This document shows, in pieces, positions 3,577 to 31,254 of a stretch of DNA of 31,254 bases. The position numbers and the translations under genes are program-made. Under the pieces are notes generated by a model that saw nothing but the letters and a program-made list of their open reading frames with translations, had not been told where the DNA came from and searched no databases. Source of the stretch: a virus. Every line of letters starts with the position of its first letter. The stretch's first letter is position 1. The stretch spans positions 1 to 31,254 of IMG/VR virus record IMGVR_UViG_3300013122_000012. One strand, 5' to 3'.

Positions 3577-4104
3577 TTATGTTATCGCACCTTCCCAGAC
3601 TGTCTCAAAAAAGTCAGGGTTTGTGAAGTCCGCGGGCATACAGTCGTAAGGTCTTTTGGGGTATAAAGCCACTTGACCGTATTCTTTCTGTAAAGCCCAG
3701 GCAGAGTTCTCTGAACAGAACTGACGACTTTGCCATTGTATGAGTAGCTTGATCTTAAATCTCAAGACCCCGAACCAGTCATACCTTAAATTACACTTGG
3801 AGGCCGCCCAAAATGCCACTTTTGCCCCTTTGCGGCCTTCGTAGTCAGGGGATTTATACCGGACTATCCTGACATACCTGCCATTAAAGCATTCTGTGAT
3901 GTCCACAACCTTTATGTTAGGCGCGGAAACCTGGACCATCCATTGACCCCCACCGGATACCCCAACATGCGTAAAACAGGCTTCCTCCGGCTTAAAACCC
4001 CTATTCCTCTGCTCTTTCTCTATCTGACGGCTAATAAAGTCCCCTTTGTGCTTAAAGAGGATGAAATAACCCATTTTCGGTATACTCAAAACAAAGTCAT
4101 TCAT
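3577..4104 (-). CDS. NlpC/P60-superfamily (YiiX-like, permuted papain fold) hydrolase
   Basis: This is about 175 residues from ATG 4104; an ATG at 4140 in the same frame is possible but overlaps the upstream gene more. FTHVGVSGGG near residue 45 supplies the probable catalytic His. QFCSENSAWALQ near residue 128 supplies the probable Cys. The His-before-Cys order is that of the circularly permuted NlpC/P60 branch (YiiX/YebB-like). It lies among small membrane-protein genes and no lysozyme or amidase is recognised elsewhere. It is therefore the best candidate for the phage peptidoglycan hydrolase (inference). A role in releasing lipids or modifying host envelope proteins remains possible. Confidence 0.55.
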   Translation of the reverse strand: MNDFVLSIPKMGYFILFKHKGDFISRQIEKEQRNRGFKPEEACFTHVGVSGGGQWMVQVSAPNIKVVDITECFNGRYVRIVRYKSPDYEGRKGAKVAFWAASKCNLRYDWFGVLRFKIKLLIQWQSRQFCSENSAWALQKEYGQVALYPKRPYDCMPADFTNPDFFETVWEGAIT

Positions 4105-4106
4105 AT

Positions 4107-4244
4107 TTAATTCGGTTGTGGACCCCCGCAGAAAGTGCATATCCAGCCGTATTTACCTTTTTTCTGTACCGTGTGGATATGACAGTAAATACAGAGACGG
4201 TTTCCCCGCTTCTTCTTATCCGTTGAATTCTCTCGCTTGGTCAT
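4107..4244 (-). CDS. Small zinc-ribbon protein
   Basis: This 45-residue ORF has its ATG at 4244 behind AAAGGAA. Two CxxC pairs (CIYC and CTFC) about 20 residues apart form a zinc ribbon. It overlaps the preceding zinc-ribbon gene in another frame. The partner is unknown. Confidence 0.6.
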   Translation of the reverse strand: MTKRENSTDKKKRGNRLCIYCHIHTVQKKGKYGWICTFCGGPQPN

Positions 4245-4383
4245 AAAATTCCTTTCTATCAACCAAACCCCTGAAGCACTTGATGAGATCCGCTCCGCAT
4301 TCGCACCTATAAGAAAGTTCCGCAAGGCCGGATTTCTTTTTTAGTGTCCGCTTACACTTAGGACAGATCAATTCTTCGTTCAT
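4216..4383 (-). CDS. Small zinc-ribbon protein
   Basis: A 55-residue ORF whose ATG overlaps the upstream stop as ATGA. It has CPKC near residue 7 and CEC near residue 27, plus one more Cys at 36, a typical zinc-knuckle spacing. The stop-start coupling and the metal-site pattern support a real gene. The function is unknown. Confidence 0.55.
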   Translation of the reverse strand: MNEELICPKCKRTLKKKSGLAELSYRCECGADLIKCFRGLVDRKEFYDQAREFNG

Positions 4384-4700
4384 AAGAGATATACGATTAA
4401 GAGCTGTATCAAATGCCAGAGCTGGTCAAGGGTATTAACGACATTGAAACTTACTCCTTTATCCCTGAATTTCCCCGCACTGATAAAATCACAGATAGCA
4501 TGCCCGGAGGATAAGAAGATGATCTTCCATAGCGGAAAAGAAAGCCCTATTTTCTCGGAGGTTATCCATACAATACATCCTGTCCACCAGATACAGTGCC
4601 AGGCCAAAACCATAGGATACTTATGCTTCTGTGAGCCGACAAAATCGGTCTGAAATTCCCCTATTGCGTGTGCGAAGAAAAGCCAAAAGAAGTTAATCAT
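4380..4700 (-). CDS. DUF3307-like membrane protein
   Basis: This 106-residue polytopic protein has about three or four hydrophobic segments. The pattern of AHAIGEFQTDF near residue 10, a mid-membrane His (AWHCIWW), HAICDF near 67 and LDQLWH near 91 matches the DUF3307 family of small membrane proteins. That family occurs in bacteria and many phages with no assigned reaction. The conserved His/Asp set suggests metal or lipid chemistry (inference). No clear ribosome site precedes it. Confidence 0.6.
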   Translation of the reverse strand: MINFFWLFFAHAIGEFQTDFVGSQKHKYPMVLAWHCIWWTGCIVWITSEKIGLSFPLWKIIFLSSGHAICDFISAGKFRDKGVSFNVVNTLDQLWHLIQLLIVYLL

Positions 4701-22295: not shown

Positions 22296-22592
22296 TCACC
22301 TTCTCCTGAATTTTAATCTGCTGGCAAAATCCTTTAACATATGCTTGCTTGCGGGGATTATACTTTTTTTATTTTCCTTGTTGAAATTTTTGACTATGTC
22401 CTTGCACATCTCAAGAACTCCTAAAGCCCTTAACTTATCCATCCAGAATTCAGGCGAAGCATCTAAAATAAGTTGGCCTTCTTTTATCCATATTTCGGCG
22501 ATTTTAAAATCTTTCGGCTGCTCCTGATTTTGGGTTTCCTGTTTTGGTTCTTCTTTCTTGGTTTCTTCTTTTGCTCCGTTATCATCAGACAT
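22296..22592 (-). CDS. Hypothetical protein between terminase and portal
   Basis: This 98-residue protein starts at 22592 behind AAAGGAC. The first 30 residues are Glu/Lys/Gln-rich and disordered. The rest is helical ([20 protein letters not shown]) with a basic end. Possibly a portal or terminase accessory protein; no family is recognised. Confidence 0.55.
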
Positions 22593-22606
22593 TTTCTGTC
22601 CTTTCG

Positions 22607-25075
22607 TTAATATCCAGCCAATCCCTTAAATCTTTTTCTCTTGGGCTTTCTGTCAAGTTTCTCTTTATAAGGTTGCTCCATCCTCACCTGGCCGGCAATG
22701 GCGCGGGCCATAACCAGGTCATCGCATTTGCCTTTTTCCGCTTCCGGTTGTCCACGTTTAGGATTGTTTATAAAAGTCCAGCATTGCTGTATGAGTTCCC
22801 TATCCAATAAGTCGGTTGAGTTATTGGTGATTTCCTCGGCAAGTTGAGATAACATCTGGGGGCGTGTTACGGAGTTGGTATTATGACTTAATATCCCATT
22901 AGTAATAATAGTATGCCCTGATGTCTCTATGCCTATAACATCAATTTCTCCTATTTCTTCTACTCTTATTACCTTTAATTTATCTAAACGAGAAGTTGTT
23001 TTGGCAGACAAATAATTTTTTTCTTTTAATTTTCTAATCAATCTTTTTGGTTGTAATTGACCAATAGCAACAAATACGCTGGATGCTTTATTAAGACCAG
23101 AATAAACCATCGTTTTATGCGGTCTTGTTGGATTTTTTCTTTGAATAAACTTAAATGTTACATTAAATCCACATTTCTTCCATAACTCTATTATCTCTTC
23201 AGAAAGTTCTCCTTCAGTTTGAGCAATATGCATTCTTAATCCAGAATATCTATTTAAACTTTTAGAAAATGTTGAAGTAATATATCCCTCTCCACAAAGC
23301 AAACCCGATAAACGACCCGCGTCAAATGTTTTCAGAGATTCCCATACTGGAATAGTTTTCAATCTTATTCCTTTGTAAATTTCATCTGCTTGCTTCCAAA
23401 ATTCTCCATTATCTGAACTCCAAGCTAAAAATGGATGATTGTTGCTTACTTCTATCTTTCTCCCATCCTCCAAAACAATCCTGAATCCATTGGCTTTAAA
23501 TTTTTCAACCTTTAAAACATTCTGATAATTAAAAGTGCGATGCCTATATCCCCACCTGCCATTATTTGATTTTTCTGGTAAATTTTCTTCAAATGCAATA
23601 AGTTCATCATCTGTGGTTACTTCACCAGCTTTTTTCCAAATAAAATCAGATGTTAAGACTAAGGTATCCAAAGCTACACAATTCCATCCAAGTTCCAGGG
23701 TCGGTTCTGTGTATCCTTTTGAAGTCTTGACTTTTCGATAAACCCGGCCATAGTTCTTATAAAGTCCCTGGTTTACAGAATATCCATAGCCCTTGCTTTC
23801 ACAGGCGATTAAAGCGTCATTATAGAAATGCCCCATTTTAATCAAATCTTCTTCAAATCTATCGGGAGCGACATTGTGATTATAAATACAGGCAGTCTTA
23901 TTCGTGCGCTTGTTTAAGACTACCCCCGAAGATTTATCTCCGTGTTCCAGTCCTTCAGCTGTATCACCCGCCACTACATATTGGTTATCTTTGACAGGAT
24001 GCTCGTAAATCCTGAAAAGCCCTGTTGGGTCTTCCCTGAAGACATACCGGGAATCCTCTTTAACGATGTTTCCTATGGCTAAGGGTTTTTTAATCTCCTG
24101 TCTTTTAAGTCCGTCTTTATTGAAATATAAATCTCCTGTTGATATAAAAGCAGTTTCCGGTGAATCCGGATATTCCTGGTTAAACTGTAAGACTGACCTG
24201 TTACAGTTATTGACTATGCACCACCTGCGCCAGTTGAGTTGTTCCTGGGTCAAGCCATACTTTTCTTTTATCTTTTTCTCATCAATTAAAAAGATTTCTC
24301 TTTCGGCGGGGGTTACGAATTCAATACCCTCAACCGGATATAGTTGACCGCCCTCAAGTGGCATTTGGTATTCCCTGACTTCCCACCAGGCAATAAACAG
24401 GGTTTCCCAATCCGAAAGCCCGGTCTGGCACTTCTGCCATTCATCGTAAAACTGGTTTCCTATGCCATTTGCGGTAGTCTCCCCGATTATCATTGTCCTT
24501 GGTAGATTAGGCACGGACTGATTTAAACCCAACATCAAGGCCCTCAAGTCCTTAAAAAATGCCACTTCTGACAGATGAACTGCCCTAAAGGTGAATTTAC
24601 GGCCGGCATTTAAGTTCTCGGAGGTATCTATAAGTATCTGGCTATGGATTCCCTCGAATTCTAACTTCTTTTCGTTTGAATGCTTAGGCATCGGTTTTAA
24701 GTGGTTATCAAGCATCTCTTGGTAGAGTTTCTGCATACCGAAGATATAATTTGCCCCGTCAATATCATCAGCAACCACGAGTGAGTTAGTGGCCTGTCTT
24801 TGGGAAGTGAAAGCGTAAATCAGGGCTTCAATCAGGGTAGAAATACCAGTCTGTCGCGCTTTCAATATCCAGAGTCTTATAGGTTTGTTCTTGGCTATAA
24901 TCTCCTTGATTTTATTCAGGACTTTTCTCTGGATGGTATTGGGTTTAAATTTTACGAGGTCGCCAGATTTGGTTTTTATAGTAAGAAACTCACCCTCAAC
25001 CAAAACAAAAGGATTGTCTTCGATTACTACTTTCTCGGCTTCCAAGATTTCCCTATCGGTTAGAGTGGCTTCCAT
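22607..25075 (-). CDS. Terminase large subunit interrupted by an intein
   Basis: 822 residues. LKARQTGIST near residues 71-80 is the Walker A of the ATPase, and RAVHLSEVAFF near 164 is the Walker B region. The nuclease carboxylates are VVAGDTAEGLEHGD (Asp 371), ALIACESKGYG (Glu 425) and KCDDLVMARAI (785-786). Residues 466-732 are an intein between ELGWN and TNSVTRP. Removing it leaves about 555 residues, normal for the family, and joins the exteins as ELGWN-TNSVTRP, which reads like uninterrupted terminases. No ribosome site precedes the ATG, so translation may depend on the upstream overlapping ORF. Confidence 0.9.
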   Translation of the reverse strand: MEATLTDREILEAEKVVIEDNPFVLVEGEFLTIKTKSGDLVKFKPNTIQRKVLNKIKEIIAKNKPIRLWILKARQTGISTLIEALIYAFTSQRQATNSLVVADDIDGANYIFGMQKLYQEMLDNHLKPMPKHSNEKKLEFEGIHSQILIDTSENLNAGRKFTFRAVHLSEVAFFKDLRALMLGLNQSVPNLPRTMIIGETTANGIGNQFYDEWQKCQTGLSDWETLFIAWWEVREYQMPLEGGQLYPVEGIEFVTPAEREIFLIDEKKIKEKYGLTQEQLNWRRWCIVNNCNRSVLQFNQEYPDSPETAFISTGDLYFNKDGLKRQEIKKPLAIGNIVKEDSRYVFREDPTGLFRIYEHPVKDNQYVVAGDTAEGLEHGDKSSGVVLNKRTNKTACIYNHNVAPDRFEEDLIKMGHFYNDALIACESKGYGYSVNQGLYKNYGRVYRKVKTSKGYTEPTLELGWNCVALDTLVLTSDFIWKKAGEVTTDDELIAFEENLPEKSNNGRWGYRHRTFNYQNVLKVEKFKANGFRIVLEDGRKIEVSNNHPFLAWSSDNGEFWKQADEIYKGIRLKTIPVWESLKTFDAGRLSGLLCGEGYITSTFSKSLNRYSGLRMHIAQTEGELSEEIIELWKKCGFNVTFKFIQRKNPTRPHKTMVYSGLNKASSVFVAIGQLQPKRLIRKLKEKNYLSAKTTSRLDKLKVIRVEEIGEIDVIGIETSGHTIITNGILSHNTNSVTRPQMLSQLAEEITNNSTDLLDRELIQQCWTFINNPKRGQPEAEKGKCDDLVMARAIAGQVRMEQPYKEKLDRKPKRKRFKGLAGY
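22880..23680 (-). mobile_element. Intein with a LAGLIDADG-type endonuclease
   Basis: 267 residues inside the terminase. It begins Cys (CVALDTLVLTSDFIWKKAGE, block A), has block B GRKIEVSNNHPFLAW, and ends with block F/G IDVIGIETSGHTIITNGIL then SHN before Thr. All residues needed for splicing are present: Cys1, the block-B His, the penultimate His, Asn and +1 Thr. RLSGLLCGEGYIT near the middle is one LAGLIDADG-like motif. A second is not clear, so the endonuclease may work as a dimer or be decayed. The DNA is more AT-rich than the flanking terminase. The insertion splits the nuclease domain between Glu 425 and Asp 785. Confidence 0.85.
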
Positions 25076-26647: not shown

Positions 26648-26734
26648 CTATTTAGGTTTTTTATTGTTTTTTGCTTTGGGTTCTTTTACTTTTGCTTGCA
26701 AATCTGTCAGTTCAGTTTCTTTGGATTTAGGCAT
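26648..26734 (-). CDS. Tiny Lys-rich protein
   Basis: A 28-residue ORF (MPKSKETELTDLQAKVKEPK...) behind a good GAAGGAGAT site, directly after the preceding stop. The good ribosome site supports expression. The function is unknown. Confidence 0.45.
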   Translation of the reverse strand: MPKSKETELTDLQAKVKEPKAKNNKKPK

Positions 26735-26893
26735 TCATATCTCCTTCGTCAAATCTATCTCCTCAATCCGCACATTCTTGGCTTTAAAAGGCAAACCATC
26801 CTTATGCTCAATCTCATATTCAAGCTTGCTTCCGTTAGCCAGTCTGGAGATCAATTTCAAGTTCTTCCAGCAGATTTTTTCGTTATCTTCCAT
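26735..26893 (-). CDS. Small hypothetical protein
   Basis: A 52-residue ORF (MEDNEKICWKNLKLISRLAN...) overlapping the end of the membrane-protein gene by 11 bp. Mixed alpha/beta with an acidic C-terminus that encodes the ribosome site for the next gene. The function is unknown. Confidence 0.5.
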   Translation of the reverse strand: MEDNEKICWKNLKLISRLANGSKLEYEIEHKDGLPFKAKNVRIEEIDLTKEI

Positions 26894-27254
26894 TATTCGC
26901 CGATAGTTGTAAAATAATTAAATTCCTCTTCAGACTAACTTCTCCCTTTGCCACAGCAAGGTCTTTTCCAGTTGCTTTATCCCTGACAACCATAACCACC
27001 GGAATAGGAATATCACCAGTTTTAGTCTGGTATAACAAAAGACACGTATAAATCAATAATCCGGTAATGATAAGTTTCCAGAAATATCTATCATGAAACT
27101 CTTTTATGTTTCTTTTGATCTCGTTCCACTCCACAACATCTTGTAATGACGGTTTTTCGTGAAATATATCCCAAAGAACTATCGCGGGAGAAAACACCAA
27201 AAATAATAAAACTTTAATAAATGTTAAGCTTTTATTTTTACGTTCTGATTTCAT
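26883..27254 (-). CDS. Membrane protein, unknown
   Basis: The start is ATG 27254, behind GGAGG; the open frame upstream is not supported. 123 residues with two hydrophobic segments (FIKVLLFLVFSPAIVLWDIF at 12-31, LIITGLLIYTCLLLY near 61-75). Between them is a charged helix with NEIKRNIKEFHDRYFW. The C-terminus is a soluble beta part (VVMVVRDKATGKDLAVAKGE). No family is recognised. Confidence 0.55.
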   Translation of the reverse strand: MKSERKNKSLTFIKVLLFLVFSPAIVLWDIFHEKPSLQDVVEWNEIKRNIKEFHDRYFWKLIITGLLIYTCLLLYQTKTGDIPIPVVMVVRDKATGKDLAVAKGEVSLKRNLIILQLSANNGR

Positions 27255-27289
27255 TTTTATTTTCCTCCCATTCCAATCCGCGCATCTTT

Positions 27290-27457
27290 TTAATTTTCTT
27301 TCTGAACCAATCCCCCATCTTCCCAAGCCATAATGTGAGTATATCCCAGATAGTCCAGCTTGTAATAAAGGTCATGGACCAAGAACCTGAAATCATAGCC
27401 AAACCGGCGCTCAATATTTTTCTGCTTGTCTTTTATCCTTTGTTCGACCCAGGACAC
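27290..27457 (-). CDS. Small protein with GTG start
   Basis: A 55-residue ORF from GTG 27457, with AGGAG five bases before it, nested out of frame in the end of the upstream Cys-rich gene. It contains an aromatic-rich helix (DFRFLVHDLYYKLDYLGYTH). The function is unknown. Confidence 0.5.
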   Translation of the reverse strand: MSWVEQRIKDKQKNIERRFGYDFRFLVHDLYYKLDYLGYTHIMAWEDGGLVQKEN

Positions 27458-27554
27458 ATCTGCTCCTTTTTAGCTGTTTTTTGTAAATCGGACAACTTAT
27501 ACAGTCATTCACGCAGTCCCCGCAGACTTCCGAGATCTCCTTGGATTTCTTCAT
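27411..27554 (-). CDS. Small Cys-rich protein
   Basis: A 47-residue ORF whose ATG overlaps the upstream stop as ATGA, behind GGGGGAG. It has CGDCVNDCISCP near residue 11 and one more Cys later. Four clustered Cys suggest a zinc or iron-sulfur knuckle. The function is unknown. Confidence 0.5.
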   Translation of the reverse strand: MKKSKEISEVCGDCVNDCISCPIYKKQLKRSRCVLGRTKDKRQAEKY

Positions 27555-27673
27555 TCTCCCCCTTCCGGTGGCCTGGCATACCCTTCCTCATCCGCCACAT
27601 TGCCTAATATGAATAACCAGATAACTACAAGAATTAATAAATTATCCAGAAAATCAAAGTTGAGTTTCTTCAT
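27551..27673 (-). CDS. Small single-span membrane protein
   Basis: A 40-residue ORF with one membrane helix (LDNLLILVVIWLFILGNV) and a polar C-terminus. It follows the truncated Avd gene by 21 bp. The ribosome site is poor. The function is unknown. Confidence 0.45.
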   Translation of the reverse strand: MKKLNFDFLDNLLILVVIWLFILGNVADEEGYARPPEGGE

Positions 27674-27694
27674 TCCTTAGGATCCCCAATTCTC

Positions 27695-27869: not shown

Positions 27870-28319
27870 CTACCTCACGGGCAAATAGTCTAATTGACAC
27901 TGGCTGGAGCGGACAGGCCACACATAATTGTAGCTGGCCTTATGGTAGAGGTACACTGGGCCGTAGTAGAAGTCCACGCACCAGAGGGAGCTCTTACCGC
28001 AAGGAGTTCTTGTCCAATACCAGTCGTTATAAGGAACTTTTTTAAACGGCTCAATGATAGCCGGGCATTCCTTTGAGTGGTCTATAAGGGTTATAAGCTC
28101 GAAGTCGTCTGCCAGCCTGTCGCCTATTTCTGCGGCGTAAGCAGCGCCTTCTTCGGCATTCAGGTGTTTAATCATCTCCAGGGGTGCCCTATCTACTCCG
28201 CATAACTTATCCCAGAACCAACCATCAGGCTTGACTTCTATACGATTGGGATGCCGCAGAAGTTGCATAAACTTGGTGAGTTGCTCTGCTTCATTTACTG
28301 CCTTCGCTTTCTTTACCAT
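27870..28319 (-). CDS. DGR-type variable protein B (DUF1566/C-type-lectin-like)
   Basis: 149 residues. The N-terminal 75 are helical. From FELITLIDHSKECPAI near residue 75 the sequence follows the DUF1566 (Lcl C-terminal, C-type-lectin-like) pattern through DWYWTRTP to YVWPVRSSQ. The last part of the gene (27898-27985) is an 88-bp block shared with the gene just upstream, differing at only 15 positions. DUF1566-type lectin folds display DGR variable residues in known systems. The predicted role is ligand or receptor binding on the virion or host surface. The Avd gene follows immediately. Confidence 0.65.
   Translation of the reverse strand: MVKKAKAVNEAEQLTKFMQLLRHPNRIEVKPDGWFWDKLCGVDRAPLEMIKHLNAEEGAAYAAEIGDRLADDFELITLIDHSKECPAIIEPFKKVPYNDWYWTRTPCGKSSLWCVDFYYGPVYLYHKASYNYVWPVRSSQCQLDYLPVR
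27898..27985 (-). repeat. DGR-like variable region, copy B
   Basis: An 88-bp block pairing with 28359-28446. It runs from TCTGGTGCGTGG to CCAGTG on the minus strand; identity stops abruptly on both sides. Codons in this copy at the nine variable sites are GAC, TAC, CCA, TAC, CTC, CAT, GCC, AGC, TAC. Confidence 0.75.
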
Positions 28320-28357
28320 GCTTTCCTCCTCCTGTAGGGGTTAATTGTTAAAGTGTT

Positions 28358-28879
28358 TCACTGGCTGGAGCGGACAGGCCACACATAATTGCTGGCGACC
28401 TTTCGGTAGTCGAGCACTCCGCCGTAGTTGAAGCCCACGCACCAGAACCAATCCGGATGCCCCTGAACTTCTTCACCTGTTCCATACCATTCAGGTTTGA
28501 TATCCGGGAATATCTCCGTATTTACGGCCGGGTTATAACGTGAGAAATCCCTCATGGATTCCAATTCGGCACGGTTAGGCTGACGCCAATCGGTCTTGCC
28601 GGCAAAGTTAAGATTTTTACATGCGGCCTCTCTCTCGGCGAAATTCATAGACTTTTTAAACTGATCCGGTAAGTCTGTATGCGGTCGGCGGATCCAGGTG
28701 AGCTTTTTACCATTGCAATTATTATCTGTTACCGTGCCGTCTCCGTTATCTGTGAAGCGATCGTTGATGATGCGGGGAAAAGCTGTCGCGGGCTGACCTT
28801 CCAATATGCTCAATATCTTCCCTAACTGCTCCACAGCCACCTCCAGTAATCCTGCTACAGTTACATTCTTCTTGCTCAT
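28358..28879 (-). CDS. DGR-type variable protein A (DUF1566 domain)
   Basis: 173 residues, ATG 28879 behind GGAGGA. The N-terminal 35 are helical. RFTDNGDGTVTDNNCNGKKL near residue 41, then AACKNLNFAGKTDWRQPNRA near 85, are clear DUF1566 signatures (GDGTVTD and the dWRxPn motif). The C-terminal WFWCVGFNYGG then YVWPVRSSQ closes the lectin-like fold. The final 88 bp are the variable block shared with the next gene. It probably folds as a C-type-lectin-like binder with the variable residues on one face. Confidence 0.75.
   Translation of the reverse strand: MSKKNVTVAGLLEVAVEQLGKILSILEGQPATAFPRIINDRFTDNGDGTVTDNNCNGKKLTWIRRPHTDLPDQFKKSMNFAEREAACKNLNFAGKTDWRQPNRAELESMRDFSRYNPAVNTEIFPDIKPEWYGTGEEVQGHPDWFWCVGFNYGGVLDYRKVASNYVWPVRSSQ
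28359..28446 (-). repeat. DGR-like variable region, copy A
   Basis: An 88-bp block pairing with 27898-27985. Codons at the nine variable sites are GGC, AAC, GGA, CTC, GAC, CGA, GTC, GCC, AGC. The last about 30 bp, ending GCTCCAGCCAGTG, are identical in both copies and GC-rich, as expected for an initiation-of-mutagenic-homing type end. Confidence 0.75.
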
Positions 28880-29616: not shown

Positions 29617-30495
29617 TTAAATATCTAATCCCGAAATTTCCTTGAATACCTTTTTATTAAAGTTTTTCAACCCTTCGATTTCCTGCAATTTCTTTTTCGG
29701 CACATTCGCCCAGGCCTCTTTGTAAGTAAAGGTCTTGAGATAACCGCCTGTTGTTTTGTAAGTAGGATTGTCGGCTTTCTCCTTCTCAGTCATTTCGCTT
29801 TCGGCAATCCATTTCTCTAAATCAAAGTATTGCCAAAGACCTAACTCATAAACCTTTTGGGCTTCTTCTTCCGTGCAGGGTTTATTGAAAAGGAAATACA
29901 TTTTTTTAGATGAGAAGTGTCCGATAATACAGCCGCTATTCCCGTCGCCGCTATTCCTGTTGCCGCTATTCCCGTTGCCGCTATTCCATTTGCCGCTATT
30001 CCCGTCGCCGCTATTCCCGTCGCCGCTATTCCTGTCGCCGCTATTCCCGTCGCCGCTATTCCATTTGCCGCTATTCCTGTCGCCGCTATTCCCGTCGCCG
30101 CTATTCCTGTTGCCGCTATTCCCGTTGCCGCTATTCCCGTTGCCGCTATTCCCGTCGCCGCTATTCCTGTTGCCGCTATTTTTATTATATAAATTTCTCA
30201 TAAGCACGATGTCCTTGTCTTTCAGATACTTTTCCAAAACTTCCTTGACTTTCTTTCTGTCGTCTTTGGCTACCAGACTATCGGGAGTGATTTCTTTTGT
30301 GTCAGGATTATACTCCCACTTATTCCAGTTATCTTCCTGTTCGGCGGTCAACCCGATAAAATGGGCAATAGAGGTATGGCTGTTCCATTCATAATTTTTC
30401 GGATTACCTTTAGCCGTTTCGTTAATAATGTCCTCTAATTTGAAAAACGCTACCTTATCCTCTCCATTACTGATTGCTGATGCAAATTTGCACAT
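29617..30495 (-). CDS. Pentapeptide-type NSG-repeat phage protein
   Basis: 292 residues behind a perfect AGGAGG. Residues 1-107 (MCKFASAIS..., with SHTSIAHFIGL) are an N-terminal domain also found in the gene at the window ends. Residues about 108-190 are 17 NSG units spaced every five residues, with only Asn, Asp or Lys then Arg, Gly or Trp in the two variable places. This should form a right-handed beta helix. The C-terminal about 100 residues (FNKPCTEEEAQKVYELGLW, TTGGYLKTFTYKEAW, then LKNFNKKVFKEISG) form a domain that recurs in phage proteins of this type. The function is unknown. Confidence 0.75.
   Translation of the reverse strand: MCKFASAISNGEDKVAFFKLEDIINETAKGNPKNYEWNSHTSIAHFIGLTAEQEDNWNKWEYNPDTKEITPDSLVAKDDRKKVKEVLEKYLKDKDIVLMRNLYNKNSGNRNSGDGNSGNGNSGNGNSGNRNSGDGNSGDRNSGKWNSGDGNSGDRNSGDGNSGDGNSGKWNSGNGNSGNRNSGDGNSGCIIGHFSSKKMYFLFNKPCTEEEAQKVYELGLWQYFDLEKWIAESEMTEKEKADNPTYKTTGGYLKTFTYKEAWANVPKKKLQEIEGLKNFNKKVFKEISGLDI
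29932..30180. repeat. 15-bp coding tandem repeat (NSGxx)
   Basis: Sixteen and a half in-frame 15-bp units. Ser and Gly codons are invariant (AGC GGC). Variation is confined to codon 4 (AAC, GAC or AAA) and codon 5 (AGG, GGG or TGG). Confidence 0.9.
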
Positions 30496-30699: not shown

Positions 30700-31254
30700 T
30701 TACGCTTGCGTTTCTTTTTGGGCATTTTCATCTTTAATCAATACTATTGCTTCTTTACGGTTGATTTTTCGTAATACCTTAAATTTTGAGGTTCGGAATT
30801 TTCCATCAGTAAAATAAGGCACGATTAAATCCTTGGTATCAAATTCTACTTCAATAAATTCATCTGCGTCTTTGCTATCTTTCAAACACCAATTAAGCGT
30901 AGCGCAATTACCACCTTTACCGCAGAGTTCATTTTTATCTTTGTCCAAATCATCAAATTTATAAGTTTTTCCGACTTCATATTCTTTATGTTGATATGGG
31001 GATTTTCCGTATTTGAGATATTTCCAAGCCCTTAATTTAAGATTTGGTTGTAAGGTAAGCAGATAATAAAGGTCGGTATATAAAATCGGTTCATCATATT
31101 TTGCGCCCTCAAGATTTGCGCCCCCAAGATATGCGCCCCCAAGATATGCGCCCTCAAGATTTGCGCCCTCAAGATTTGCGCCCCCAAGATTTGCGCCCTC
31201 AAGATTTGCGCCCCCAAGATTTGCGCCCTCAAGATTTGCGCCCCCAAGATATGC
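30700..31254 (-). CDS. Pentapeptide-repeat protein, C-terminal part (enters from the right edge)
   Basis: The true frame starts at 31254 and runs 184 codons to a stop at 30700. Ten A(N/Y)L(G/E)G units (31254-31105) are followed by YDEPILYTDLYYLLT. Then comes a DUF7666-like end (LRAWKYLKYGKSPYQHKEYE, VGKTYKFDD, ADEFIEVEF, KFKVLRKI) with a Cys pair at LCGKGGNC. It is in frame with the ORF at 318-1 across the window ends. The combined protein would have an N-domain, ten pentapeptides and this C-domain, the same plan as the NSG-repeat gene. The function is unknown. Confidence 0.75.
   Translation of the reverse strand, partial: AYLGGANLEGANLGGANLEGANLGGANLEGANLEGAYLGGAYLGGANLEGAKYDEPILYTDLYYLLTLQPNLKLRAWKYLKYGKSPYQHKEYEVGKTYKFDDLDKDKNELCGKGGNCATLNWCLKDSKDADEFIEVEFDTKDLIVPYFTDGKFRTSKFKVLRKINRKEAIVLIKDENAQKETQA
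31105..31254. repeat. 15-bp coding tandem repeat (pentapeptide A-N/Y-L-G/E-G)
   Basis: Ten perfect-length 15-bp units reach the window edge. On the minus strand each reads GCA (AAT or TAT) CTT (GGG or GAG) GGC. Assemblies often break at such arrays, which fits the contig ending here. Confidence 0.9.

Follow-up and report, generated by a model that had tools for sequence, protein, structure and literature searches.

In the DGR of phage BPP-1 (mtd, avd, TR, brt), the variable repeat (VR) occupies the 3′ end of a single C-type-lectin target gene and is followed by a hairpin and then by avd; the element is intact and active (PMC3240598). Its homing requires the RT, Avd and the template repeat (TR), and inactivation of RT, Avd or TR in the reconstituted system left a level of ~1e-9 (PMC12875486). 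Incomplete DGRs of phages, DGRs with several targets, DUF1566 targets and action in trans in a bacterium have all been published already. Several crAss-like phages keep VR-bearing targets of the tail-collar fibre type although they lack, or have a defective, TR or RT, and the crAssphage LMMB cassette has no avd (PMC7290462; PMC11054128). In one crAss-like genus, cassettes are incomplete in 66 of 91 genomes (PMC7290462), and in some Epsilonunovirus phages the RT is fragmented or deleted (PMC11054128). Isolates of Treponema denticola have VR-bearing targets without RT and TR on their chromosomes, interpreted as what remains after loss of the core DGR (PMC4891356). Multiple VRs are common, at 28.6% of the DGRs surveyed in one study (PMC6642488; see also PMC3521204), DUF1566 is a common target domain (PMC4159848; PMC6642488), and trans action, together with disrupted loci alongside intact ones, is described in Thiohalocapsa (PMC10907252).

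The locus analysed here shares with BPP-1 the VR at the target 3′ end, avd as the next gene and a target of predicted C-type-lectin-like fold; unlike BPP-1, it has two targets and a broken cassette. With the crAss-like phages and the T. denticola isolates it shares targets that appear to have outlasted their machinery; its targets are, however, Lcl_C proteins (the domain formerly named DUF1566) with an avd remnant, and they lie in a phage and not in a bacterial chromosome. The coordinates are collected in Table 1.

Table 1. Features of the locus, in coordinates of the window.
Feature	Position	Strand	Remarks
Target gene B, Lcl_C (DUF1566) protein, 173 aa	28358..28879	-	PF07603 E 3.7e-24; VR is the exact gene end
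Variable repeat B	28359..28446	-	88-nt repeat; variable sites overlap TR adenines
Target gene A, Lcl_C (DUF1566) protein, 149 aa	27870..28319	-	PF07603 E 3.3e-11; nine codons after the VR
Variable repeat A	27898..27985	-	88-nt repeat; variable sites overlap TR adenines
Truncated avd, first 56 codons then TAA	27695..27865	-	50% identity over 56 aa to L042 Avd, E 8e-16
Expected site of the remaining avd, TR and RT	26883..27694	-	40-aa ORF (27551-27673) and unrelated 147-aa ORF (26883-27326) instead

The window is the whole IMG/VR entry IMGVR_UViG_3300013122_000012, of 31,254 bases; the entry is classed as linear and the window may therefore be a fragment. A domain search identified an SU10-type portal and a Phage_capsid_3 head protein. 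Some portal-related phage records measure 41-48 kb, compared with the 31 kb of the window, and neither RVT_1 nor Lcl_C was matched in 24 such records. A sibling contig (L002), 99.5 to 99.8% identical to the window, ends at window position 26698 and falls short of the truncated-avd junction. Over its positions 4090-4671, opposite window 22513-22608, this sibling is longer by ~0.5 kb, with flanks that are again 99.5 to 99.8% identical. The terminase gene (within window 22607-25075) contains an in-frame insert of ~260 codons, at about 22892-23680, with a weak intein-splicing match below the cut-off (E 1.5e-4); the terminases of relatives are devoid of it and align on both of its sides. Tandem repeats of 15 nt are found at 29932-30186, where the array encodes pentapeptide repeats (PF01469), and at 31100-31254. 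Since the record stops within the second array, its end is likely an assembly break.

Both target proteins score above the PF07603 cut-off. The fold comparison covered gene B, whose structure model (pLDDT 88, 173 aa) has as its best match the C-terminal domain of Legionella Lcl (8q4e, Z 13.1 over 115 residues, 2.8 A); 8oks (Z 10.8) and Bdellovibrio Bd2740 are among the next matches, and many C-type lectins follow at Z 8 to 9.6. A C-type-lectin-like fold is thus predicted for gene B from the model. That such DUF1566-type folds are known DGR targets, as had been stated when the letters alone were read, agrees with the literature (PMC4159848; PMC6642488). Searched by sequence with gene B, solved structures gave no match, and a search with this single protein found no relative in viral contigs or in the annotated phage collection.

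A repeat search of the window returned the two 88-nt blocks as an ungapped pair, as the sequence-only reading had described them. Its counts were also reproduced: on the coding (minus) strand, 15 differences fall in 9 of the 28 complete codons, all nine codons differ in the encoded residue, and 14 differences occupy the first or second codon position, leaving one at the third. The block had been said to end both genes, which holds for gene B, while gene A continues beyond it (Table 1). No synonymous difference exists, in agreement with the same reading; taken alone this is weak evidence, because 12% of sets with 15 changes drawn at random likewise have none. Better evidence comes from the concentration in codons and the bias toward positions 1 and 2: in simulations, 15 random changes were confined to nine codons or fewer in 0.5% of cases (p 0.005) and placed at most one change at position 3 in 1.1% (p 0.011). 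The argument that a template adenine explains every difference proved to be no test, as any two bases can be derived from A; an A is kept in one copy at only 9 of the 15 differences, which is about chance level. We take the real support for a DGR pattern to be the overlap with adenines of homologous TRs, described below. The two repeats are identical at 73 of 73 constant sites, which limits the divergence accumulated after they were last copied to ~4%.

The G+C content of the repeats is 56 and 60%, against 40% for the whole record, and the target-bearing phage L026 has a similar contrast (59% against 40%). A GC-rich hairpin of the BPP-1 type (GRNA loop) was sought, and neither repeat A nor repeat B is followed by a stem longer than 4 bp. 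This is not decisive, as the repeats of the intact phage cassette in L042 are also without a hairpin. The motif TTTTGACAATTT stands after the VR in several phages (the VR2 end of L042, L026 at 8035 and both VRs of L094), and in the window a diverged form alone is found, downstream of repeat B. The motif could be a target-recognition element that replaces the BPP-1 hairpin.

Intact homologous cassettes were found by profile search in two phage contigs, L041 and L042 (IMGVR_UViG_3300030493_000350 and IMGVR_UViG_3300001866_000045). Like the window, they carry on one strand two Lcl_C targets in tandem, each with a VR at its end, followed by avd, and the VR tails in both cases code for VRSSQ; they then continue with the TR and RT, whereas the window holds 56 avd codons and neither TR nor RT. 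The repeats of L041 and L042 differ from their own TR at 13 of 25 adenines, but at only one or two of the 61 remaining sites, and so provide a clean DGR control. When the window pair was placed on the L042 TR, 12 of its 15 differences coincided with adenines, which make up 22 of the 78 sites (Fisher p 4.3e-6, with sites taken as independent and a TR that is homologous, not cognate). On bacterial TRs, 11 to 13 of the 15 differences fell on adenines; here too the TR positions of the window come from homologues. Variable codon 4 has no adenine in the L042 TR. Both window repeats end in CAGTG, as do the VRs of L042, while the L042 TR ends in CAACG. The window repeats thus appear to carry a VR-type 3′ end distinct from the TR end (IMH versus IMH*).

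Degenerate patterns of the repeat tail led to L026 and to bacterial loci. Three of the latter (L031, L032, L035) have adenine-rich TRs that read in frame into the RT, and a fourth (L033) has a TR-like copy. The two-target layout recurs, since L054, L055 and L056 each combine a pair of VRs with a TR and an RT. In these three loci, as in L041 and L042, the targets are followed at a distance of no more than ~700 nt by avd or the TR. An exact copy of the VR tail was absent from viral and genome collections, and the TR-tail pattern from viral contigs. A search for repeats matching the window, run over 395 genomes from the phylum that includes G054 (which contains L035) and 396 from that of G053 (which contains L033), yielded only more distant repeats, that of L094 included. 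The template search proposed on the basis of the sequence alone was therefore answered in part: homologous TRs exist in phages and bacteria, and a TR with the constant bases of the window was not found. Homologues with ordinary synonymous divergence and without a TR were not seen.

The truncated avd starts four bases past the stop codon of target A, on the same strand, and is the sole Avd match in the record. It matches NF033474 DivGenRetAVD (E 2.4e-5) and PF22296 bAvd (E 3e-4); both scores lie under the cut-offs, as expected for only half a protein. As a query in viral contigs, the remnant matched only distant DGRs. Downstream of the 56 codons there is no trace of the remaining avd in the window. 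In the 31-kb record, itself a fragment, RVT_1 has no match, nothing is homologous to the RT of L042, and the repeat has no further copy, beyond A and B, that could be a TR. Avd is an accessory protein that is common, and not universal, among DGRs. Some natural phage DGRs are without avd (PMC7290462). Given the cut in avd, the missing TR and RT and the effect of inactivation in BPP-1, the cassette at this locus is very probably dead in cis, and adenine-directed homing in cis is unlikely here. The proposal of adenine-directed homing onto lectin targets consequently stands insofar as the blocks are DGR variable repeats; as an account of the whole element it is incomplete, the adjoining cassette being broken.

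Other loci without an RT resemble the window. In L043, a repeat is joined to the TR 3′ flank and to ~60 RT residues (70% identity), the arrangement expected if VR and TR had recombined and a deletion had occurred as well. L094, whose genome was reached via the search of the G054 phylum, carries two targets whose starts lie 2.6 kb from each other, and its avd stops near residue 111. Its repeat pair is identical at 92 of 92 constant sites (divergence bound ~3%), and a search of the genome bin showed neither RVT_1 nor a third repeat copy. Directly after its avd, at the place expected for TR and RT, lies an ORF labelled HNH-like by reading of its sequence (reverse-complement coordinates 4286-4699, minus strand). 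Invasion at this ORF may have removed or replaced the TR and RT. L026 has a single target in 41 kb, with neither avd nor RT in that stretch. Because the breakpoints differ among the window, L094, L043 and L026, these loci look like separate losses, as far as sequence records that may be incomplete can tell.

These data make it likely that both blocks are variable repeats belonging to a phage DGR that had two Lcl_C targets in tandem and later lost part of its cassette. The DGR origin is supported by the intact cassette of L041 and L042, the bacterial TRs, the truncated avd and the predicted lectin-like fold. In the ancestral cassette, the TR would have been copied to cDNA with random bases opposite adenines, and the cDNA would have homed into the ends of both lectin genes, giving repeats A and B. 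A deletion would then have taken the TR and RT together with the 3′ half of avd, and the two lectin genes would have been retained with their last written variants, probably frozen. The perfect agreement at constant sites in the window and in L094 implies either a recent loss or homing from elsewhere. A recent loss accounts for it most simply, and the 73 matching sites count against any loss that is not recent; homing that still goes on, whether in trans or from a part of the genome outside the sequenced record, explains them too.

The machinery may have moved rather than been lost: since the record is a linear fragment, the TR and RT, perhaps with another avd, could lie in the unseen part of the genome and still rewrite the repeats, which would also agree with their identity at constant sites. 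We regard this as unlikely, because avd or the TR closely follows the targets in L041, L042 and L054-L056, the avd of the window is cut, and a TR-like tail was found in no viral contig. A DGR in the host or in a co-infecting phage might instead rewrite the repeats in trans, and we give this a small chance of being correct. It predicts matching constant sites in RT-less lineages, as seen in two separate ones (the window and L094), and Thiohalocapsa PB-PSB1 provides a reported case of trans action (PMC10907252); against it, searches of viral and genome collections and of the 791 genomes of the two phyla found no TR with the window's constant bases, and the L094 bin offers neither RVT_1 nor a third copy. 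The truncation might also reflect faulty assembly, or an allele that coexists with intact ones in the population; we give this a similarly slight chance. Short repeats of the VR/TR type are prone to misassembly, disrupted loci coexist with intact RT/TR variants in Thiohalocapsa (PMC10907252), and the sibling contig stops before the junction; however, the break lies inside avd, in non-repeated sequence ~200 nt from the nearest repeat, and the RT-less relatives have different breakpoints. Duplication or gene conversion of the lectin tails under diversifying selection, with no DGR at all, would suit the unseen cognate TR and the p of 0.12 for the lack of synonymous changes taken alone, but is scarcely credible: the differences coincide with TR adenines, an avd remnant adjoins the targets, and the genes are ordered as in intact DGRs.

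Partial loss of the cassette, the reading we prefer, adds a phage group that lost its mutation machine yet retained the targets. If rewriting in trans were true instead, RT-less phages would keep pairs of targets by borrowing the mutation machine of another element. The main value of the work lies in the series of related RT-less loci. With the intact phage cassettes, the loci show different states: the cassette is intact in L041 and L042, avd is cut in the window, the TR and RT are gone with avd present in L094, L043 has a VR that adjoins the TR flank and a stub of the RT, and the target stands alone in L026. This series lets one ask why phages abandon targeted hypermutation, how long the targets remain useful, and whether they borrow another machine.
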